The notes under the pieces: generated by a model
The model's input: only the letters and a program-made list of their open reading frames with translations
Database searches by the model: none
Told to the model about the DNA's origin: nothing
In this document: one piece after another, positions 51,127 through 64,000 of the stretch
Numbering within the stretch: position 1 is the stretch's first letter
How the letters are laid out: each line of letters starts with the position of its first letter
Program-made: the position numbers and the translations under genes
Assembly (NCBI GenBank): GCA_002707525.1
Contig: PAND01000018.1
Span: forward strand, 65,759-129,758
DNA length: 64,000 bases
Direction of reading: 5' to 3'
From: Flavobacteriales bacterium
GTDB taxonomy: Bacteria; Bacteroidota; Bacteroidia; Flavobacteriales; Schleiferiaceae

Positions 51127-52512
51127 TTAACCCTCCGGAATATATGATACTGCCTTCTTATTTTTGATGAGAAAATTTGAAGCGGATGCAATAATTAAAG
51201 AGGTCCCAGCCAAGAGCATGGCATTGATTGGCTCTTCTCCAAAAACACCTTGATAGATAATGGTTAGTGATGTGGCTGCTACAATTTGTGGTAACACTAT
51301 AAACATGTTAAAAATACCCATGTATACGCCCATTCTTTTAGGGTCGAGCGTTGAGCTTAACATGGCATAAGGCATTGAAAGAATTGAGCCCCAGCTAAAC
51401 CCAATACACACAAAGCTAAGAATCAACATAGTGGGATTATCTATTAGATACATGCTAATGAATCCTATGCCTCCAATAAGCAAGGAAAACATATGAACCA
51501 ACTTTCTATTGATTCGTCTTTTTGCTGTCCAAACAGTAAGAAGAAGAGCGAATACCATGGAGCTTAGGCCGTAATTACCCATAAATGAGCCCACCTTATT
51601 TGATGCTTCATTAAATGCTCGGTCATCAATTTGATAATTTTGTATCTGCTCAGACGTACTTACTGCAAAGTCTATTGCCTCCGGTTTCGCCGCATTGAAA
51701 ATATGATCCGTAAGTGCTGGGTTGGCCATAGACCACATACAAAAGAAAGCAAACCAAGAGAAAAATTGCACAACGCCTAATCTCTTCATTGTGGTAGGCA
51801 TTTCAGCTATGTTCTTGAATACTTCTCTTAGCGTATTTCTAAACCCTGATTTTTCAATTTGCTCTTTGCGAAAAGCTTCAATATCCTCAGGCGGATATTC
51901 ATCTGTTGTAAATACCGTGTACAAAATGGACAGAATGAATACAGCTGCGCCTATCCCAAAGGCTACTTGAACGGACATAGGAATAACGCCTGGTTCTGCT
52001 TCATTGCTTACTCCGAATGAACTGACCATTAACGGTAAATTAGAGGCAACCCAAGTGCTTACTCCAATTATGAGTGTTTGCACCACAAAACCAAAACTAC
52101 GTTGACTATCCGGTAACTTATCCGCCACTAATGCTCTAAAAGGTTCCATGCTTATGTTCATACTAGCATCTAGAATCCAGAGAGCACCAGCCGCCATCCA
52201 TAACGCAGAGCTATGGGGAACAACTAATAGGGTAAGTGATGCTAATATGGCGCCAATCAAAAAATAAGGACGACGGCGACCATAACGCACGTGCCATGTA
52301 TTATCGCTCATTTGACCAATAATGGGCTGCACAATTAAACCTGTTAAAGGAGCTGCTATCCATAATAACGGGAGGCTATGCTCGTCAGCGCCAAGTGTTT
52401 CAAATATGCGGCTCATGAAGCCGCCTTGAAGAGCATAACCAAATTGTATTCCCAAAAAGCCGAAGCTCATGTTCCAAATTTGCCAAAAACGAAGTTTAGG
52501 TTTGATCTGCAT
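51127..52512 (-). CDS. MFS maltose/maltooligosaccharide transporter (SLC45/sucrose-transporter-like)
   Basis: The 461-residue permease has 12 predicted helices. Its start, FWQIWNMSFGFLGIQFGYALQGG, and QPIIGQMSDNTWHVRYGRRRPYFLIGA are typical of the Bacteroidota disaccharide permeases related to plant sucrose and SLC45 carriers. It is probably a proton-coupled inner-membrane importer for maltose or short maltodextrins. It is the last gene of the sus operon, 24 bp after the exported-protein gene. Substrate assignment rests on the GH65 and beta-phosphoglucomutase context. Confidence 0.85.
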   Translation of the reverse strand: MQIKPKLRFWQIWNMSFGFLGIQFGYALQGGFMSRIFETLGADEHSLPLLWIAAPLTGLIVQPIIGQMSDNTWHVRYGRRRPYFLIGAILASLTLLVVPHSSALWMAAGALWILDASMNISMEPFRALVADKLPDSQRSFGFVVQTLIIGVSTWVASNLPLMVSSFGVSNEAEPGVIPMSVQVAFGIGAAVFILSILYTVFTTDEYPPEDIEAFRKEQIEKSGFRNTLREVFKNIAEMPTTMKRLGVVQFFSWFAFFCMWSMANPALTDHIFNAAKPEAIDFAVSTSEQIQNYQIDDRAFNEASNKVGSFMGNYGLSSMVFALLLTVWTAKRRINRKLVHMFSLLIGGIGFISMYLIDNPTMLILSFVCIGFSWGSILSMPYAMLSSTLDPKRMGVYMGIFNMFIVLPQIVAATSLTIIYQGVFGEEPINAMLLAGTSLIIASASNFLIKNKKAVSYIPEG

Positions 52513-53397: not shown

Positions 53398-53886
53398 CTA
53401 TTTCCTAGTAAACATTAAAGTGTAAGAAACACTCGGCTTGTCGCAACGAATACGATTATACACCACGCTAAAATTTTGGTCTATTGTGCGCGGCATATTA
53501 CCTAAAGGCAACACGGTCGTCAATGTATCAAATTGTGTTAAATAAAGTTCTGATGGAAATTCAGGAGTATTATATTTCCATGTTCCCCCTGCACCAAATA
53601 AATCAAACCCTGGACCTTGTGAGGAAACACTGTAAGTACTGTCCGTATTGAACATTACCGTCCATTTGTTTGATGCGTTTTGGTAAATCCGGCTTATATC
53701 CCTGGTTTCCGGAACCGGCAAGGTCACGTCTGTTTGATCTGCGCCTGTTAATTCCCAACTACCAATAATTCCTGCTCCCGCCTCATACGATGGTCCAATT
53801 GGTCCAACTTCCGGCTTACATGCGCCCAAAATCAACAAGGCGCTCGCAATAAATAGTGTTACTTTTTTCATTTTATCTAACTGCAT
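53398..53886 (-). CDS. Small lipocalin-like lipoprotein of the sus operon
   Basis: The 162-residue protein has a lipobox (LLILGAC, cysteine at 23). The mature part begins with IIGSWELTGADQTDV, the G-x-W signature of lipocalin-like lipoproteins, and shows alternating strands such as WTVMFNTDSTYSVS and GTWKYN. It resembles the DUF5004-like group seen next to SusD genes; function is unknown. Its ATG shares a base with the susD stop (TAATG at 53888-53884), so the longer start is preferred over the ATG at 53871. Confidence 0.68.
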   Translation of the reverse strand: MQLDKMKKVTLFIASALLILGACKPEVGPIGPSYEAGAGIIGSWELTGADQTDVTLPVPETRDISRIYQNASNKWTVMFNTDSTYSVSSQGPGFDLFGAGGTWKYNTPEFPSELYLTQFDTLTTVLPLGNMPRTIDQNFSVVYNRIRCDKPSVSYTLMFTRK

Positions 53887-55295
53887 TATTGGCAGCCTCC
53901 TTCGTCATTATATATAAACCCTTGCGCCGTGCCTTCAAAATTTGGAAACTGAAGCACCATTCCGGGACAATCCCAGTCGACGCCACGGATTTTCTGAATT
54001 TCACCTAGCACACCTCTGCGCTTAAGCTGGAAGAGGCGATCTCCTTCACAAGCCATTTCTAATCTTCTCTCTGCCATTACCTCATTTAGGCTTAATGAAC
54101 CTAAAACCGGGACACCTGCTCTAGTTCTCAAGTCATTGATAAACCCTAAGCCGCTACCGTCATTATCGCTATTTAAGCGAATGTTACATTCTGCATAAAT
54201 GAGGTACATTTCCGTCAAGTGAATGAGTGGAACATCAATAAAGCTTGCATCAAATTTACTAATCATATAAAGCTCATCTGGTGTTCCAGCGTTGCGCATG
54301 TTATACCACAAATGACCTCGGAAATCATTGGTGTCCGCGGTAGCAGATGTAAACAAATCTGCGCTTGCTTTTAAGGCAGGATTCGCGTTTGGGTCGTCCG
54401 AACGATAATTACCCACAAATCCTGATCCGCGCTCATCCACTAGGGTGTCACTACCTACAACTTCATTTGTGCTTACAAGCGTAAATATAAATTCCGCGGG
54501 TAAGCTCCCGTTTGCATGGTCATTGAAACGTTTTGTCAAGTCCTGCTCTAAAGCATACGCTCCAGAGTTAATTACCTCCGAGGATTTTGTTTTTGCACTG
54601 GAGAAATCTGCCATTTCCAAATACACTTTTGCCAATAGTGATTTGGCAGCCATTTGATTGGCAAAAATACCGTTGTCCACAGGTAAATCCTGTTCCGCGT
54701 CTAACAAGTCTTGTTCAATTGCAGCGTATACTTCTGCAACCGTGGCGCGCATTTGCGGCGTTTGATCCGCGCTTAACTTTAACGGAATACCTAGGTGACT
54801 ATTGTCAGATGTATACCCATAAGGTTGTGCCCAAATACGAACAACGTGATAATGACAAAGTGCCCTAATAAATTTTGCCTCTGCAGAAATTCTTTGGGCT
54901 TCGGAAGTGGTGACTCCTTCCAAACTCGACACTTCCTCTAAAAGCGTATTTGCACGATAAATTGCGATATACGCATCTCGATATTGTCCACCGAAAGAGC
55001 CGTTAAAGAAGGATGAGGTCCATCTATAAATTTGAGCATATTCTCCGTTTAATCCGAGAGGGTCAGCAAGGTTGTCAGACATTACCTCAGGAATATTTTG
55101 AAAGCCGCCGTTAAAAGCGTTCGCTGTAACATCATATACGCTGACCAAAAGCTGTTGCGCATCTTCAATAGTTACGATTGCTGAGTCAGCTGGAATTTGA
55201 GAAGTTGTATCTGCTTTGAAGTCCAAGATTCGCTCACAGGAGGTGTTTCCTATGACAATCGTTCCAAGTGCTATTATTGCTGCTATTTTTTTCAT
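53886..55295 (-). CDS. SusD/RagB family nutrient-binding outer-membrane lipoprotein
   Basis: The 469-residue lipoprotein has a lipobox cysteine at 20 (VIGNTSC). The SusD pattern includes the N-terminal RILDFKADTTSQIPADSAIVTIEDAQQLL, TPR-like helices (YIAIYRANTLLEEV, AEAKFIRALCHYHVVRIW) and the C-terminal AERRLEMACEGDRLFQLKRRGVL. SusD caps the SusC channel and delivers bound glycan. It lies 12 bp after susC. Confidence 0.95.
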   Translation of the reverse strand: MKKIAAIIALGTIVIGNTSCERILDFKADTTSQIPADSAIVTIEDAQQLLVSVYDVTANAFNGGFQNIPEVMSDNLADPLGLNGEYAQIYRWTSSFFNGSFGGQYRDAYIAIYRANTLLEEVSSLEGVTTSEAQRISAEAKFIRALCHYHVVRIWAQPYGYTSDNSHLGIPLKLSADQTPQMRATVAEVYAAIEQDLLDAEQDLPVDNGIFANQMAAKSLLAKVYLEMADFSSAKTKSSEVINSGAYALEQDLTKRFNDHANGSLPAEFIFTLVSTNEVVGSDTLVDERGSGFVGNYRSDDPNANPALKASADLFTSATADTNDFRGHLWYNMRNAGTPDELYMISKFDASFIDVPLIHLTEMYLIYAECNIRLNSDNDGSGLGFINDLRTRAGVPVLGSLSLNEVMAERRLEMACEGDRLFQLKRRGVLGEIQKIRGVDWDCPGMVLQFPNFEGTAQGFIYNDEGGCQ

Positions 55296-55307: not shown

Positions 55308-58300
55308 TTAAAAATTAATGTTCACACCAATATTATAAGTCTTCTCTTGGGGTGGGGTCAGGTACGTAATATTAGGTGACATATTCCGATCCGTTGCATT
55401 TTCAAAATCACGAGCAATCTCTGGATCTAGACCAATAAAATTGGTTAATGTAATCAAGTTGGTGCCCGTCACATTTACTGTCATCCCCTTGACATGTTTT
55501 AAGCGCTCCTGAGGAATTCGGTAACTCAATTTCACGTTTCGCAATCTTGCGTATGTTCCATCATGCAACCAAAGGTTTGTATTGATCCATTCAGTATTTG
55601 CCCCATAAGTACGGTAGTCCCTACTCAAGCGCGGATACGTTGCAATATCCCCTGGTTGTTGCCATCGGTCAAACAAATCTGTCCGCATGTTCCAATCCGT
55701 AACCACACCCATTTGACGTTTAGAAGAACTGTCGTAGATATCACCGCCAATAGTGAACACCCACATGAATCCGAATTCCCAGTTCTTGAAATTGAACGTA
55801 TTGGTAAGTCCTCCAATAGCATCCGGCATGACATTACCCACGGCTACGCGATTTTGTAGATCCCATGTGTAGGTTTCATTTCCTTCCTTGTCTAAATAAA
55901 CGGGTAATCCGTTCTGTGGGTCAACGTGGGAGAATTGTACCAAGTAATTCGTACCAATTGGCATCCCAACAACCACGCGGGTATCGTTTGTACCACCACT
56001 TACGGCATCAGGAGAGTATTCTCCAATAGAAGTTATCTCGTTATAATTGCGTGCAATATTGAAATCTGTAGTCCATGTAAAGTTATCCGTAACAATGTTT
56101 CTAGATTTTATGGCAAATTCTACACCTGTGTTGTAAACGCTACCAACATTATCCCACCAAGAACCAAAGCCTGTAGATCCTTGAAGAGCAACATTTAATA
56201 ACATGTCGTTCGTCTGTTTTCTATACCAAGCCAATTCACCAGAAATTCGATCATTGAACAAACCATATTCAAGGGCAACATCATACGTTGTGGAAGTTTC
56301 CCACCTCAGATTTGCGTTTTCACGGATAACAGGATAGCGATACGTCTGACCAGCATAACCATTGTTTGCCACATTATAGTAACCGAACCATTGATATGAC
56401 GGAATCGCAGAATTACCGTTCTTACCAACTGAAGCTTTCATTTTCAGAAAGTTTATCGCGTTCAGCCTGTCCAGAAACTCCTCGTCTGACATCACCCACC
56501 CCACTGATGCAGCAGGGAAATTACCGTACTTATTGTTGGGGCCAAACTTCGAAGAGCCGTCGCGACGAATCAACGCCTCCGCATAGTATTTGCCCTTATA
56601 ATTGTAGTTCAAACGAGTAAAGGCTGAAGCGAAAGCATACTCTTCTAAATAGCTCAACGGATCATTCACCCACTGACCTGTCTCTCTTATCTGACCAAGG
56701 GCCTCACTGTCGTAATAGCCGTCCCAACGTTTGATCCTGTTGTATTGATATTCGGAGCCGATTAACCAATTTATATGGTGGTTTTCTCCAAAATCCTTGA
56801 TGTAGTTAGCAGTTGCGTTTCCGGAAGTATTGTATACATCATAAGTATACATGTTTGCGCGACCTAAAAAGTTTCCATCGGCATCTTTATAGGTAGGGTC
56901 ATATCCAGGCTTTTCCCATATATGATCCTCAAAGTGCATATAATCAAACGCGCCTTGACCGCGAATAGTCCAAGCGTCACTAAGCTTGTAATTCATAGTG
57001 ACGTTATTGATCGAGCGGTCTTCAAGGGCCGTCCAATCTTTCAAGTCACGCTGCGCTACCGGGTTTAAATTAATACCTCCTTTAAGCCAATAGTCCCCCG
57101 CATTTGCCATTATATTCCCGTCATCATCGAATTCATCATTTTCATAATAAATAGGATAGATGGGAAGTGCCTTTGACATTGCTTCTCCAAAACCTCCTGA
57201 CCATGCCGCATCAATTCTGTTGTTTACTCCGCGAGAAAGCGAAGTACTCAGGCCAAGTTTAAAGCGCTTTGAAAGATCAAAATCTGCATTTATACGCCCA
57301 GATAGGCGCTCATAGGAATTCCCGGCTAAATAACTGTGGTTATCATTATATGAAAGCCCCGCATAAAAGTTACCCCCCTTGAAACCACGAGATGCGGAAA
57401 AATCATAACCGTGTTTTACTCCTTGACGTATAGTTTCTTGTATCCAATCTGTTCCTTCATACGCTTGCGCTTCTGACCAGCTCATTCTGTTTCCCGGAAG
57501 TTCTGGTATACCAACATTTCCGTCATTCACCCACGCTTCCTCATACATTTTAAGGTACTCATCTTTATTCATCATGTTAGGCAATGCTGTTGGGTTTGAA
57601 AAACCCACTCTTGAGGAAAAATTATAGGTTAACGATTTGCTTTTACCTCTTTTCGTTGTAATTAGCACAACCCCATTGGAGCCACGTGACCCATAAATAC
57701 CTGTTGCCGCTGCATCTTTAAGTATTTCAACAGACTCTATATCGTTTGGGTTAATTGTAGCAAGTGGATTTGTGTTAAAACCACCACGATTCCCATTTAA
57801 AAAGTAATCCTGCGTAATTGGAATTCCATCCACCACGTAAAGAGGGTCACCACCGGCAGAAATAGACGCGACTCCCCTAACCCTTACCATAGAACCAGAA
57901 CCGGCAATACCGGATCCCGTAATCACCTGAACACCTGCAGCTTTACCTTGGATGGCGTTTTCAAAAGACGGAGTGGGTATATCCGTTAACTCCTTAGATT
58001 TTATGGACACTACCGAACCCGTTAAATCTCTTTTACGAGCAACACCGTATCCCACTACCACAACTTCATTGAGCTGATTTAAGGACGGCTTCATAGTTAG
58101 GTTGATCACCATTTTACCCTTGACATCCACTTCCTTATTCACCGTTTGATATCCTATGAACGTATACCTAAGGACATGCTTTCCAGGCTTTAATGACAAG
58201 GTATATTGACCATTAAAGCTGGTAGATGTAGTTATGCCATCTTGTGTAGAAATAGAGACAGACGGTAGCGGTTCGTTGTATTCATCCACTACCGTTCCTG

Positions 58301-58373
58301 AAATAGTCTGAGCATGCAAAATGCCCCCAATCAAAAACGAAATAATGACAAGAAAACGAGAAAACTGTTTCAT
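55308..58373 (-). CDS. SusC/RagA family TonB-dependent outer-membrane transporter
   Basis: The 1021-residue receptor has a signal peptide (1-21) and a carboxypeptidase-regulatory-like domain (ISGTVVDEYNEPLPSVSIS, about 24-95). A TonB-box-like EVVVVGYG is followed by the plug (about 115-225, with VRVRGVASISAGGDPLYVVDGIP) and a 22-strand barrel ending in YNIGVNINF. With SusD it imports oligosaccharides, here probably alpha-glucans. Its promoter overlaps a candidate operator. Confidence 0.96.
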   Translation of the reverse strand: MKQFSRFLVIISFLIGGILHAQTISGTVVDEYNEPLPSVSISTQDGITTSTSFNGQYTLSLKPGKHVLRYTFIGYQTVNKEVDVKGKMVINLTMKPSLNQLNEVVVVGYGVARKRDLTGSVVSIKSKELTDIPTPSFENAIQGKAAGVQVITGSGIAGSGSMVRVRGVASISAGGDPLYVVDGIPITQDYFLNGNRGGFNTNPLATINPNDIESVEILKDAAATGIYGSRGSNGVVLITTKRGKSKSLTYNFSSRVGFSNPTALPNMMNKDEYLKMYEEAWVNDGNVGIPELPGNRMSWSEAQAYEGTDWIQETIRQGVKHGYDFSASRGFKGGNFYAGLSYNDNHSYLAGNSYERLSGRINADFDLSKRFKLGLSTSLSRGVNNRIDAAWSGGFGEAMSKALPIYPIYYENDEFDDDGNIMANAGDYWLKGGINLNPVAQRDLKDWTALEDRSINNVTMNYKLSDAWTIRGQGAFDYMHFEDHIWEKPGYDPTYKDADGNFLGRANMYTYDVYNTSGNATANYIKDFGENHHINWLIGSEYQYNRIKRWDGYYDSEALGQIRETGQWVNDPLSYLEEYAFASAFTRLNYNYKGKYYAEALIRRDGSSKFGPNNKYGNFPAASVGWVMSDEEFLDRLNAINFLKMKASVGKNGNSAIPSYQWFGYYNVANNGYAGQTYRYPVIRENANLRWETSTTYDVALEYGLFNDRISGELAWYRKQTNDMLLNVALQGSTGFGSWWDNVGSVYNTGVEFAIKSRNIVTDNFTWTTDFNIARNYNEITSIGEYSPDAVSGGTNDTRVVVGMPIGTNYLVQFSHVDPQNGLPVYLDKEGNETYTWDLQNRVAVGNVMPDAIGGLTNTFNFKNWEFGFMWVFTIGGDIYDSSSKRQMGVVTDWNMRTDLFDRWQQPGDIATYPRLSRDYRTYGANTEWINTNLWLHDGTYARLRNVKLSYRIPQERLKHVKGMTVNVTGTNLITLTNFIGLDPEIARDFENATDRNMSPNITYLTPPQEKTYNIGVNINF

Positions 58374-58399: not shown

Positions 58400-58420
58400 C
58401 AAATGTATAGAATACACTTG
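58400..58420 (-). promoter_or_regulatory. susC promoter and candidate Nudix-regulator operator
   Basis: The imperfect palindrome CAAATGTA-N5-TACACTTG (plus-strand reading) has one mismatch between its 8-bp arms. On the minus strand its last eight bases are TACATTTG (58400-58407), an exact TAnnTTTG -7 box with about a 20-nt leader to susC. It matches the site at 59260-59280 in arm sequence and spacing. Binding here would block transcription. Confidence 0.65.
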
Positions 58421-58494
58421 TTCCATGGAAATGACTAAAACCGCTGTCTTAACTGAATGCGCCCATTGTTTATCATAATAACAAGATGTTCTTG

Positions 58495-59199
58495 CTACAA
58501 TAGGCTATCTATTGACTTAACCTTGTACAATCGGGCAGGTTTATGTAGCACACCCTTTTGTTTTTCCTCAGTTGCTTCGATCACTTTTTCGCGAACAATT
58601 TTTTTACGGAAATTTCTTTTGTCTAATTCTTCTTGAGTAATTGCCTCATGCAGCTGCTGAAGCTCATTTAAGGTGAATTTAGGAGGCAGAAGCTCATAGG
58701 CTGTTTTGTTCAATTCAAAATGCCGCTGAAGTTTCATCAAAGCAACGTTTACAATTTCATTATGATCAAATGCCAATTCCGGTATTTCAGTAATTTCTAT
58801 CCAAAGGGCTTCTCCAGCAAAACTAGAAGGGTTAGGAATAAAATCTGCCATTTTCACTAGAGCGTAATAGGCCACAGTAATGACTCTTTCCTTGGGGTTA
58901 GAACGATAAAGCTCTAGCCATTTACGGTCCTTTTCAGCATTAACCCGTTGAGGATTGCCGAATGTGTGAAACTGTTTTAAATGAACGTCACGTAAACTGG
59001 CCAATTCCCACAAAACGCGTTCAGCGGATTCATCTAAGCCCTCTCCTTGATGTATTAAATCACCGGGTAATCTTTGCTTTAAGACACCTTGACCAATATC
59101 TTTTTCTTCAATCAAAAGGACATTCAAACTCTCGCCATCAAAACCAAAAATCACGCAATCAACACTGATGTTAGGGTTAATGTCCTTTAGGTCACTCAT
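58495..59199 (-). CDS. Nudix/winged-helix transcriptional regulator (NrtR-like), probable regulator of the alpha-glucan locus
   Basis: The 234-residue protein has an N-terminal Nudix domain and a C-terminal winged helix (about 150-234, FRKKIVREKVIEATEEKQKGV). The Nudix box is degenerate: GEGLDESAERVLWELASL lacks the REUxEE core, so hydrolase activity is unlikely. This is the layout of NrtR-type sugar regulators of Bacteroidota such as AraR. It sits between susC and pfkA, flanked by two copies of a 21-bp inverted repeat; it therefore probably represses both units and senses a sugar or sugar-phosphate. Confidence 0.88.
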   Translation of the reverse strand: MSDLKDINPNISVDCVIFGFDGESLNVLLIEEKDIGQGVLKQRLPGDLIHQGEGLDESAERVLWELASLRDVHLKQFHTFGNPQRVNAEKDRKWLELYRSNPKERVITVAYYALVKMADFIPNPSSFAGEALWIEITEIPELAFDHNEIVNVALMKLQRHFELNKTAYELLPPKFTLNELQQLHEAITQEELDKRNFRKKIVREKVIEATEEKQKGVLHKPARLYKVKSIDSLL

Positions 59200-59259
59200 G
59201 ATGTGAATTTTGCTACTCTTTCTTATTTGGGTCCTTGAATATAAGCAGTAAAAATTTAA

Positions 59260-59280
59260 TAAGTGTATTATTTACACTTA
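59260..59280 (+). promoter_or_regulatory. Candidate Nudix-regulator operator upstream of pfkA
   Basis: TAAGTGTA-N5-TACACTTA is a perfect inverted repeat with 8-bp arms, ending 6 bp before the pfkA -7 box. It lies in the divergent region shared with the Nudix regulator, consistent with control of pfkA and autoregulation. Confidence 0.7.
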
Positions 59281-59285
59281 GTTCT

Positions 59286-59293
59286 TATCTTTG
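59286..59293 (+). promoter_or_regulatory. -7 promoter element for pfkA-gap
   Basis: TATCTTTG is an exact TAnnTTTG match ending 5 bp before the ATG at 59299. The usual 7-nt distance to the transcript start predicts an essentially leaderless pfkA mRNA. Confidence 0.55.
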
Positions 59294-59298
59294 CTCGT

Positions 59299-61283
<1,985 letters not shown>

Positions 61284-61338: not shown

Positions 61339-62211
61339 ATGATACTAATTGCTGAAAGTGGTTCTACCAAATGCGACTGGGTTGTTCTCAATTCAGACGG
61401 TACTGAATACAAGCGATTCTCAACCATGGGCTTCAACCCTTACTTTCACTCTGCTTCTTTTATTTACGAGGAGCTAAGTGATAATGACGCCTTTAAGGTT
61501 GTTGGGAGCAGTATTGAGTTTGTTTATTTCTACGGAGCAGGCGCGTCCTCAGAAAGTTTAAAAGACATTATAAAGGACGGTCTTCAAATGGTACTGCCTC
61601 AAGCAGAAATCAATGTTGACCATGATCTAGTTGCAAGCGCTTATTCTACCTACACTGGCGAACCAGCTATTACCTGTATCATAGGAACTGGCTCAAACAG
61701 TTGTTTTTTTGACGGTGAAGCGGTAAGCGAAGAAGTACCCGCCTTGGCCTATGTATTAGGTGATGAGGGGTCTGCCAGTTATATAGGAAAGCGTCTTGTC
61801 TCCGACTTCTTGTATAAAAAGCTTCCAACAGAAATGGCGGAAGACTTCTACAACACGTATCAATTGGATAAAGATGAAATCATCACCAGTGTATACAACA
61901 AGCCCAATGCAAACGTTTATTTAGCCTCCTTTAGCAGGTTTGCTGGAAAGCACATGCAGCACCCATACGTCAAGAAAATTGTGCGTGAAGGGTTTGAAAA
62001 ATTTGCTGACATTCATATTGCTTGTTTCAACAATTGTGAACTTGTACCCGTTCATTTTGTAGGCAGTGTAGGTGCTATTTTTCACGAAATTTTGGAAGAT
62101 GTTTTAGCAAAACGAAACATGAAATTAGGACAGATTATGCGCAAACCGGTAGACGGTTTAATTAAATACCATTTAGAGTATCTTAAAGTCCTAGAAGCAT
62201 ATAAAGTATAA
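61339..62211 (+). CDS. BadF/BadG/BcrA/BcrD-family sugar kinase (N-acetylglucosamine kinase-like)
   Basis: The 290-residue ASKHA ATPase has the phosphate-1 loop MILIAESGSTKCDWVV, a phosphate-2 region CIIGTGSNSCFF and LGDEGSASYIGKRL. Relatives phosphorylate N-acetylglucosamine, glucosamine or glucose. Because maltose phosphorolysis releases free glucose and no ROK- or Glk-type glucokinase is seen here, a glucokinase role is a reasonable guess. It precedes pgmB by 9 bp. Confidence 0.85.
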   Translation: MILIAESGSTKCDWVVLNSDGTEYKRFSTMGFNPYFHSASFIYEELSDNDAFKVVGSSIEFVYFYGAGASSESLKDIIKDGLQMVLPQAEINVDHDLVASAYSTYTGEPAITCIIGTGSNSCFFDGEAVSEEVPALAYVLGDEGSASYIGKRLVSDFLYKKLPTEMAEDFYNTYQLDKDEIITSVYNKPNANVYLASFSRFAGKHMQHPYVKKIVREGFEKFADIHIACFNNCELVPVHFVGSVGAIFHEILEDVLAKRNMKLGQIMRKPVDGLIKYHLEYLKVLEAYKV

Positions 62212-62220
62212 GCCTACCAC

Positions 62221-62865
62221 ATGATAAAAGGATTCCTATTTGACTTAGACGGCGTTATCGTAGATACTGCCGTTTTTCATTTTCAAGCATGGCGTAAAGT
62301 TGCTCAAAAATTAGGAGGGGATTTTACCGAAGCGCAAAACGAGCAGCTGAAAGGCATCAGCAGAACAGATTCCCTTAAGAAAATTATTGAATGGACTCAA
62401 GCGGAAGTAAGCGTTCTTCAATTTCAAGAATTACAAGAACAAAAAAACCGCTGGTACCTGGATCTCATTGGCGGCTTAGGGCCAGAAGATGCGTTACCAG
62501 GAGCGATTGAGTTTTTGCGTCGCACCTACTCCCAAGGAATTTTAATCGCCTTGGGAAGCGCCTCAAAAAACGCGCCTATGGTTTTAGAAAAATTAGGTGT
62601 CACTGAATTATTTAGTGCGGTAATAGATGGGAATAATGTGATAAACGGCAAACCACATCCAGAAGTATTTTTGAAAGGAGCAGAGGCTCTAGGATTAGAA
62701 CCGTCAGAATGTTTAGTTTTTGAAGATTCCATAGCGGGTGTTCAAGCAGCAAAACAAGGTGGAATGTCTAGTGTGGGTATTGGTGAAGCCGAAACCCTCA
62801 ATGCAAACATCCACTTTGAATCATTGGGCGAAACTACACCGGAGTTATTAGCAGCTCAATTTTAA
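62221..62865 (+). CDS. pgmB: Beta-phosphoglucomutase
   Basis: It converts beta-D-glucose 1-phosphate to glucose 6-phosphate. The 214-residue HAD enzyme has the nucleophile and acid/base pair D8 and D10 in FDLDGVIVDTAVFHFQAWR, the HFQAW motif typical of beta-PGM, ALGSASKNAP and FEDSIAGVQAAKQGGM. Adjacency to GH65 phosphorylase confirms the pathway. Confidence 0.95.
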   Translation: MIKGFLFDLDGVIVDTAVFHFQAWRKVAQKLGGDFTEAQNEQLKGISRTDSLKKIIEWTQAEVSVLQFQELQEQKNRWYLDLIGGLGPEDALPGAIEFLRRTYSQGILIALGSASKNAPMVLEKLGVTELFSAVIDGNNVINGKPHPEVFLKGAEALGLEPSECLVFEDSIAGVQAAKQGGMSSVGIGEAETLNANIHFESLGETTPELLAAQF

Positions 62866-62881
62866 AAATTGAATTCGAAGA

Positions 62882-64000
62882 ATGCTTGATACATATACTG
62901 AGGTACACCCTTGGAAGATTATTGAACGCAGTTGGAATGCGGAAAATCATCCTAAGAGTGAAAGTTTGTTTTCTATTGGTAACGGCCGAATGGGCCAACG
63001 TGCCAATTTTGAAGAAACATATACCGGTACTAGCTTACAAGGCTCTTATGTGGCTGGCGTGTATTACCCTGATAAAACTAGGGTAGGTTGGTGGAAGAAT
63101 GGCTATCCTGAGTATTTCGCTAAAGTTCTAAACTCCTGCAATTGGATTGGGATCAAAATCAAAGTGGGAGAAGAGGAGTTAGACCTAAATACCGCAGTTG
63201 CCGTAAATAACTTTTACCGTGAACTCGATATGAGAAGCGGATTGCTCAAGCGGTCTTTTGAAGCGACTCTTCCCTCTGGCAAAATACTCGCTATTCATGC
63301 GGAACGCTTTACAAGCATTGTTCAAGACGAAGTTGGCGCGATTTCATATCGGGTCACACCAATAAATTTTTCCGGTGAAATAGAAGTATGTACCTGCCTA
63401 GATTTTACTATTACCAATGAAGACAGTAACTACAATGAGTCTTTTTGGGAGCACGGTTCGTTCGGCACCAATAGCAATGCTAGTTACGTTCACGCTAAGA
63501 CTAAAAAGACCGCCTTTGAAGTAAGTGTTGCCATGTGCAATACTCTTTACAAGAATGATGTTCTTCAAGATTGGAATCCGGTTTTAGATTTACGGCAGCT
63601 TTGGGTAAGCGAAACTGTTCGGTTAAACGTTTCTGAAGGACAAGAATTAAGACTTGAAAAAGTAGCTGCTGTTCTATCTAGCATGAATCATGAAGCCGAA
63701 TTATTAAACACTAATGCCACTGCACTCGCTACCACGGGGCAATCAAGAGGATATCAAAAACTACGTTCTGAGCATATGGAAGCTTGGCATAAAAAGTGGG
63801 AAACCTCAGATATTGAAATTGATGGTGATACAGAGGCTCAGCAGGGTATTCGTTTTAATATCTTCCATATGAATCAGACCTTCACCGGTGTGGACGATAG
63901 ATTAAACATTGGTCCAAAAGGTTTTACCGGGGAGAAATACGGCGGATCAACCTACTGGGATACGGAAGCTTACTGTTTACCATTCTACCTTGCTACGGCA
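62882..64000 (+). CDS. GH65 maltose phosphorylase-type enzyme, partial (3' end beyond window)
   Basis: The frame runs from ATG at 62882 to the right edge (373 codons). It has GH65 features: LFSIGNGRMGQRANFEE near 29-45, a long N-terminal super-sandwich domain, and the start of the catalytic (alpha/alpha)6 barrel with GGSTYWDTEAYCLPFYLATA at the edge. The catalytic glutamate lies beyond the window. GH65 enzymes phosphorolyse maltose, trehalose or kojibiose to beta-glucose 1-phosphate. Maltose is favoured by context. It starts 16 bp after pgmB. Confidence 0.93.
   Translation, partial: MLDTYTEVHPWKIIERSWNAENHPKSESLFSIGNGRMGQRANFEETYTGTSLQGSYVAGVYYPDKTRVGWWKNGYPEYFAKVLNSCNWIGIKIKVGEEELDLNTAVAVNNFYRELDMRSGLLKRSFEATLPSGKILAIHAERFTSIVQDEVGAISYRVTPINFSGEIEVCTCLDFTITNEDSNYNESFWEHGSFGTNSNASYVHAKTKKTAFEVSVAMCNTLYKNDVLQDWNPVLDLRQLWVSETVRLNVSEGQELRLEKVAAVLSSMNHEAELLNTNATALATTGQSRGYQKLRSEHMEAWHKKWETSDIEIDGDTEAQQGIRFNIFHMNQTFTGVDDRLNIGPKGFTGEKYGGSTYWDTEAYCLPFYLATA

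Follow-up and report, generated by a model that had tools for sequence, protein, structure and literature searches.

The closest described system to the locus analysed here is AraR of Bacteroides (BT0354; PDB 5bs6, 5dd4 and 5deq), an L-arabinose-responsive member of the NrtR family which shares its Nudix-like and winged-helix architecture. Table 2 of PMC4666351 gives GTGT and ACAC half-sites seven bases apart in the AraR-DNA crystal, and the accessible text of that paper describes AraR as controlling SusCD genes together with cytoplasmic sugar genes. A further sugar-associated NrtR member of the Bacteroidota is XylR of Bacteroides (BT0791), which is tied to xylose genes in the accessible text of PMC3878776 and is set beside the present regulator by description only. 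The NAD-metabolism NrtR of Shewanella oneidensis (3gz5, 3gz6 and 3gz8) has the same fold and domain order, responds to ADP-ribose and differs in its targets, which are NAD genes. Central-carbon repressors are known from other protein families, CggR being the one of Firmicutes. In Proteobacteria, this role belongs to HexR, CceR and GluR (accessible text of PMC5507952), and the regulator reported here would resemble these repressors in making glycolysis or Entner-Doudoroff genes respond to the supply of sugar, although the protein families differ. In the open-licence literature, as far as titles and the beginnings of abstracts go, NrtR-family sugar regulators of Bacteroidota were found for arabinose and xylose and none for glycolysis, and no description of the present regulon was found in that scope. 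The kind of regulator is known and its regulon is apparently undescribed.

The window, a stretch of 64,000 nt of contig PAND01000018.1 from a Flavobacteriales bacterium (Schleiferiaceae), carries an NrtR-family regulator gene of 234 aa at 58495-59199 on the minus strand. The initial annotation had placed two 21-bp inverted repeats on either side of this Nudix/winged-helix gene, and their sequences and coordinates were exact to the base. Read directly from the sequence, the predicted operator O1 at 59260-59280 (TAAGTGTATTATTTACACTTA) is a perfect palindrome with arms TAAGTGTA-N5-TACACTTA in the intergenic region from which the regulator gene (minus strand) and pfkA (plus strand) diverge, while the predicted operator O2 at 58400-58420 (CAAATGTATAGAATACACTTG) lies upstream of susC and has arms CAAATGTA-N5-TACACTTG with a single arm mismatch. 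Boxes of the type TAnnTTTG, which we take to be the -7 box of Bacteroidota, were found in the sequence at both places. The pfkA promoter box TATCTTTG (59286-59293, plus strand) starts 6 nt past the 19-bp core of O1, and the susC promoter box TACATTTG (58400-58407, on the minus strand from 58407 to 58400) is contained in O2; the annotated overlap with the susC box and abutment on the pfkA box were therefore both seen. No place in the window other than O1 and O2 matched AAGTGTA-N5-TACACTT at ≤1 mismatch. At ≤3 mismatches there were 7 matches compared to 3.5 expected, a total that 8 of 100 shuffles reached and that is by itself unremarkable. A transcript hairpin was also considered for O1 and was rejected because O1 lies upstream of the promoter box.

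The proposed target operon on the plus strand begins with pfkA, encoding 6-phosphofructokinase (59299-60282; TIGR02482, 400 bits), followed by gap for a type I glyceraldehyde-3-phosphate dehydrogenase (60297-61283; TIGR01534, 443 bits), a BadF/BadG-type sugar kinase-like protein (61339-62211) and beta-phosphoglucomutase (62221-62865; TIGR01990, 230 bits). The pfkA, gap and beta-phosphoglucomutase scores were above the model cut-offs, and the kinase-like protein stayed under family cut-offs (PF01869 28.9 bits, cut-off 31.5; weak NagK match). The start of a GH65 gene of maltose-phosphorylase type follows (62882-64000; PF03636, 231 bits) and continues past the window end, and downstream of it in the genome are a GH13-type gene and a second gene that is GH13-like by eye. 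In the assembly, the GH65 gene is split into two ORFs of 426 and 323 aa (window 62882-64000, L009:4641-6966); the split may be genuine or stem from an error in the assembly. On the minus strand are susC, a SusC/RagA TonB-dependent receptor (55308-58373; TIGR04056, 756 bits, above cut-off), a susD-like lipoprotein (53886-55295; PF14322 and PF07980) and, at the far end of the proposed sus operon, an MFS sugar symporter (51127-52512; PF07690, with GPH/sucrose-symporter models under cut-off).

The regulator belongs to the NrtR family of Nudix/winged-helix proteins and comes closest to Bacteroides AraR, and the annotation of a Nudix-type regulator was corroborated by Pfam, PDB sequence and fold matches alike. 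A Nudix-like N-terminal domain and a C-terminal NrtR winged helix were both present, with scores of 84.1 bits for NrtR_WHD (PF21906, cut-off 27), 37.5 for AraR_C and 27.0 for NUDIX (PF00293, cut-off 21.1). The nearest PDB sequence was BtAraR 5bs6 (E 1e-32), with Shewanella NrtR next. A structure model built from 34 aligned sequences, including a paralog from the own genome, had a mean pLDDT of 87.7 and a pTM of 0.86. Its best structural match was AraR 5deq_A (Z 22.7, rmsd 2.7 over 200 residues), NrtR reached Z 19.2, and both fold matches extended across the two domains, in agreement with Foldseek; identity to AraR in structural alignments was about 33-36%. The Nudix catalytic signature REUXEEXGU, whose degradation in NrtR is described in the accessible text of PMC4666351, is likewise degraded here and reads R-V-L-W-E-L-A-S-L by eye.

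Compared residue by residue, the recognition helix keeps the contact residues of AraR. The contact residues Asp178, Lys179, Arg180 and Asn181 were identical in 34/34 aligned proteins, own paralog included, and Lys184 was kept in 33/34 and is present in the window regulator; the wing contact residues Lys204/Arg205 were not kept and read HK (residue roles here and below as given in the accessible text of PMC4666351). Among the arabinose-binding positions, the Arg86 and His131 columns were identical in 34/34 proteins, and the Arg34 column, which lies beside an alignment gap, held Q in 16, E in 10, K in 5 and R in 3, with Glu in the window regulator. Differing from AraR in this mostly replaced Arg34, window-type regulators also have an insert, RVxxxKDxxWLxxYRxNPxxRV, after the Arg86 column, which is absent in AraR and the own paralog; residues 88-97 form a helix in the model. 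The position is not empty, however, in the Parabacteroides homologs (L041/L042) or in L039. Two known classes were tried for the protein and rejected: the NAD-metabolism NrtR, for which the equivalog NF050029 (NCBIfam) gave 94.8 bits against a cut-off of 400, and AraR itself, for which Arg34, the wing residues and the gene context all fail, the neighbours being pfkA, gap, beta-phosphoglucomutase, GH65 and susCD and not the arabinose genes with which AraR clusters. The orthologs formed a single branch of 74 rows separate from AraR and the paralog under midpoint rooting (support 96/74, the second value being under the usual 80).

In the own genome (2.1 Mb), 5 places matched the motif at ≤1 mismatch compared to 1 for the reversed control pattern. 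The 19 matches at ≤2 mismatches showed no excess over the control (18), so two-mismatch matches there mean nothing and only sites with 0-1 mismatch were followed up. The strict motif WAGTGTA-N5-TACACTW was found in 25/25 genomes of the genus (49 sites, 0 control), a conservation that provides the strong evidence against a chance match, in 9/10 further ortholog-carrying genomes (35 sites, 4 control) and in 13/17 more (37 sites, 4 control). With G050, common to the latter two sets, counted once, 46 of 51 ortholog-carrying genomes had the strict motif and five lacked it anywhere (G034, G033, G112, G101 and G094), compared to a single genome (1 site, 1 control) among the 17 for which no homolog was listed.

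Regulator homologs at E 1e-10 or better were present in 114 of the 149 genomes searched. Co-occurrence with a pfkA site was computed for the 102 genomes with a readable pfkA upstream region, taking the better site where there were two pfkA genes. A site at ≤2 mismatches within 300 bp upstream of pfkA was present in 65 of 72 genomes with an ortholog (regulator ≥50% identical to that of the window) and in 0 of 30 without (Fisher p 1.7e-19, which overstates independence because the genomes are related). Of the 30, 14 had no listed homolog at E 1e-10, and the other 16 had only more distant ones, which were classed as non-orthologs (E values of the best hits 1e-27 to 1e-47; 37-46% identical in the nine given; some of insert-bearing length). 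Several genomes of genus g11, G030 (no pfkA hit) and the f11 and f15 genomes without a pfkA hit fell outside the 72, and the f15 orthologs (44-50% identity) were assigned by tree. The seven ortholog genomes lacking the pfkA site had best matches of 3 mismatches (G025, G037, G043, G070 and G084) or 5 (G054 and G062). The site persisted where pfkA was about 3 kb from the regulator (L115-L119) or elsewhere on the contig (G033).

Conservation followed the arms. Across the 65 pfkA sites, positions 2, 4-6 and 14-18 were invariant and the spacer was variable, a pattern for which the limit on mismatches in itself selects. Within the genus, 25/25 genomes had the pfkA site at ≤1 mismatch, and invariant columns made up 13/14 of the arm positions compared to 2/5 of the spacer and 12/29 of the flanking ones; this comparison was limited to WAGTGTA-N5-TACACTW sites that have TAnnTT[TC]G at +25, a filter that biases towards conserved arms and that 25/25 genus loci passed. 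Judged from these alignments, the palindrome pair is a conserved putative operator. The annotated assignment of AAGTGTA-N5-TACACTT to the regulator is supported by the 65/72 against 0/30 distribution, the AraR-like spacing and the kept contact residues, and conservation upstream of orthologous pfkA genes, on which the annotation had staked its proposal, came out clearly.

Site position within the promoters was computed for 49 hand-chosen loci, 24 from the genus and 25 from other genera, the latter including six without susC in the stretch and one without a pfkA hit. The set left out g5 loci, most g11 loci and families f2, f4 and f8, in several of which pfkA sites are farther from the start codon. 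At genus pfkA genes, the TAnnTTTG box was at +25 from the palindrome start in 22/24 loci and the other two read TATCTTCG. At other-genus pfkA genes, the box was at +17 in 24/24 loci given (20 distinct genomes) and overlapped the palindrome, whose last two bases are the TA of the box, which would explain the recurrent terminal T-to-A change. At susC, the palindrome was present at ≤2 mismatches in 10/24 genus loci, with the box inside the right arm (+12) in those 10, while 13 loci had 3-4 mismatches and the remaining one reads N. Of the other-genus susC loci, 17/19 had it at ≤2 mismatches, and in 17/17 of these the distance from palindrome start to box was 32-35 nt. The annotation's expectation of a motif upstream of susC was thus borne out in other genera and only in part within the genus.

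It is highly likely that O1 and O2 are operators of the NrtR-family regulator encoded between them, which would act as a ligand-released repressor of the pfkA operon and susCD. By analogy with AraR, which has a 21-bp operator with the same GTGT-N7-ACAC spacing as AAGTGTA-N5-TACACTT, a dimer would set its recognition helices on GTGT-N7-ACAC, covering the stretch just upstream of the pfkA -7 box at O1 and the susC -7 box at O2. O1 lies 60 nt upstream of the regulator's own start codon, and the regulator may therefore autoregulate through it. The ligand-free dimer would block RNA polymerase. On supply of alpha-glucan or glucose, a hexose-derived ligand would enter the Nudix pocket, the winged helices would turn and the DNA would be released. 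Release would induce outer-membrane glucan uptake (susCD) and the pfkA-gap-kinase-beta-PGM-GH65-GH13 type operon, by which maltodextrin breakdown would be joined to glycolysis. In this scheme, binding, repression, autoregulation and an effector derived from glucose or glycolysis are what we infer. The predicted common control of SusCD and cytoplasmic sugar genes resembles that by AraR, whereas the regulon of this AraR-like protein looks like glycolysis and alpha-glucan use in place of arabinose. The link between glucan import and glycolysis that the annotation had put forward is supported by comparative genomics, and the system is very probably a conserved switch by which a group of flavobacteria couples glycolysis to taking up and degrading starch-like sugars. 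If true, one conserved operator tying outer-membrane glucan uptake to phosphofructokinase and glyceraldehyde-3-phosphate dehydrogenase would give a testable genome-wide regulon in a lineage represented here almost wholly by metagenome-assembled genomes.

The same promoter positions bear on whether the regulator, while binding these sites, is an activator or has a dual role instead of being a ligand-released repressor. A -33 element is expected near a position 32-35 nt upstream of the box, which is where the palindrome starts in the 17 other-genus susC promoters, so that a dual role is conceivable there, and basal expression is presumably needed for glycolytic genes. In contrast, the palindrome overlaps the -7 box in other-genus pfkA and window susC promoters, a position typical of repressors that fits the predicted repression, and the nearest characterised relative, BtAraR, loses DNA affinity on sugar binding according to the accessible text of PMC4666351. 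Activation or dual control is accordingly considered improbable beside ligand-released repression.

Binding of the palindrome by another factor, with the place of the regulator being coincidental or reflecting shared control, is very improbable. The main candidate is the second NrtR-family protein of the own genome (contig C1, 2201-2881; L012), which has the same recognition-helix residues, DKRNFRKK, as the window regulator. In G032, a strict site (at 1501) is at the start codon of a paralog-type gene (L300:814-1500) whose product is 33% identical to the window regulator. However, no site at ≤2 mismatches was found in 12 kb around the own paralog, and the 16 genomes with only distant NrtR-type homologs had no pfkA site. 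The paralog is still the main rival, but its candidacy is weakened because G050 and G042, both 99% complete and with the ortholog as their sole NrtR-type hit at E 1e-10, still carry the motif. Exclusive binding by the window regulator rather than the paralog is likely on these distributions. As a separate observation, the L300 site hints at cross-regulation among NrtR proteins.

That the palindromes are chance, promoter or RNA-hairpin elements without a dedicated regulator is hardly credible: the absence of an excess over the reversed control at two mismatches in the own genome would agree with it, but the strict motif has 49 genus sites compared to 0 for the control and is nearly confined to regulator-carrying genomes, the arms are conserved with a variable spacer, and the genus pfkA palindrome is upstream of the -7 box and so outside the transcript if that box is used.

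For the predicted repressor encoded between O1 and O2, the regulon looks wider than the initial annotation had proposed. Sites preceded gapB-type glyceraldehyde-3-phosphate dehydrogenase genes at 114-120 bp in five loci (L205, L209, L221, L270 and L278); this type was called by scores above the NF006139 cut-off in L209 and L278, by clustering with L209 in L205 and L221, and by eye in L270. A phosphoglycerate kinase (pgk)-like gene followed a site in L265, scoring under the cut-off of a longer bifunctional model. Among genes for glucan use, sites were present before an alpha-amylase-like gene (L279, under cut-off), a GH13 gene (L312), a glucan phosphorylase (L304) and CBM48-type secreted proteins (L272 and L273, of which L272 was profile-scanned), and the site of L303 lies between a GH31 gene and a short CBM-type gene. 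TonB-dependent receptors were preceded by sites in L186, L187, L191, L193, L196, L211, L212, L216 and L308, four of which were confirmed by scan (L191, L196, L216 and L308). In L199-L201 (L199 scanned), a site was found before a GH100-kinase fusion. In L199:248-2095, with the motif upstream, a single chain combines an invertase-like GH100 part with a phosphoribulokinase/uridine-kinase-like part, possibly a sugar-cleaving enzyme joined to a sugar kinase. Such a regulon would also allow gene functions to be predicted, those of the BadF-type kinase and the GH100-kinase fusion being examples. Other strict sites have neighbours that could not be tied to sugar, e.g. L264, L266-L269, L276, L277, L297 and L307.

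Three further sites of the own genome were located. The site C16:31671, with one mismatch, is followed after 27 bp by an MFS transporter gene and, on its other side, after 140 bp by a divergent Gfo/Idh gene, and was retained at the corresponding place in G012, where the DNA is 84% identical. The cluster that has this site in its divergent promoter (L007:2333-10502) encodes a GMC oxidoreductase, Gfo/Idh and TIM-barrel proteins and a 3-keto-disaccharide hydrolase. The site C20:38274 precedes a gene for an IgGFc-binding/CHU_C type secreted protein, and this target recurred in 10 loci with the site 5-13 bp before the gene (L008:18275, L183, L184, L185, L188, L192, L195, L197, L198 and L204; identity scanned in L198). 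Such a protein, having no obvious sugar role, is an unexpected target for a sugar regulator. The site C20:27018 is 343-348 bp from its neighbours, one of which is a doubtful ORF. It is probably a chance match, because the only unassigned similar match in the nearest relative G012, C211:11842, lies in DNA without a blastn match to the C20:27018 region. Sites overlapping the start of a truA-like gene (AATGTAATGCGTACACT; L202, L210 and L220; named by eye) were rejected as targets, since coding conservation explains them at least as well.

pfkA was not found in the seven f15 and f11 genomes tested. In f15, regulators adjoin zwf-pgl-edd-eda type genes (L122, L125 and L126); edd and eda were assigned by score in L122, as were zwf and a sugar-porter MFS gene in L260, and pgl was called by eye. 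Near the regulator in the f15 and Vicingaceae-type loci (L038 and L040), no palindrome at ≤2 mismatches was present, the best matches having 3 mismatches in f15, where G112 and G101 lack the strict motif, and 4 in L038/L040. A relaxed pattern, GTGT-N7-ACAA, was found in the zwf/transporter intergenic region close to regulator orthologs; upstream of zwf, L260-L262 have two copies each and L263 has one, and the pattern was absent from the upstream regions of L038 and L040. In simple shuffling, a region has about a 1% chance of containing GTGT-N7-ACA[AC] at least once; the pattern was chosen after the sequences were inspected, and three of the four loci are close relatives. In the f11 genome G128, a strict site is flanked by a kinase-like gene at 54 bp and, at 115 bp, by a gene called transporter-like by eye; no Pfam match at 1e-5 was obtained for either gene. 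The kinase-like gene is 37% identical to the window kinase, and the regulator follows on the same contig about 4 kb after the site.

A broader reading is put forward tentatively, and we would give it somewhat less than even chances: the regulator would belong to a separate NrtR subfamily whose members repress glycolysis and glucan genes in several families of a single bacterial order, with a hexose-derived, possibly phosphorylated ligand sensed in a pocket remodelled by the conserved insert. Its targets would have moved from Embden-Meyerhof genes (pfkA-gap, gapB and pgk) to Entner-Doudoroff genes (zwf-pgl-edd-eda and the sugar-porter transporter) where no pfkA was found, with GTGT-N7-ACAA as a relaxed operator there. 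Finally, a three-mismatch match was present in Parabacteroides (L042:5841), 160 bp upstream of the matched region of the regulator homolog, and the site type may extend to Bacteroidales.
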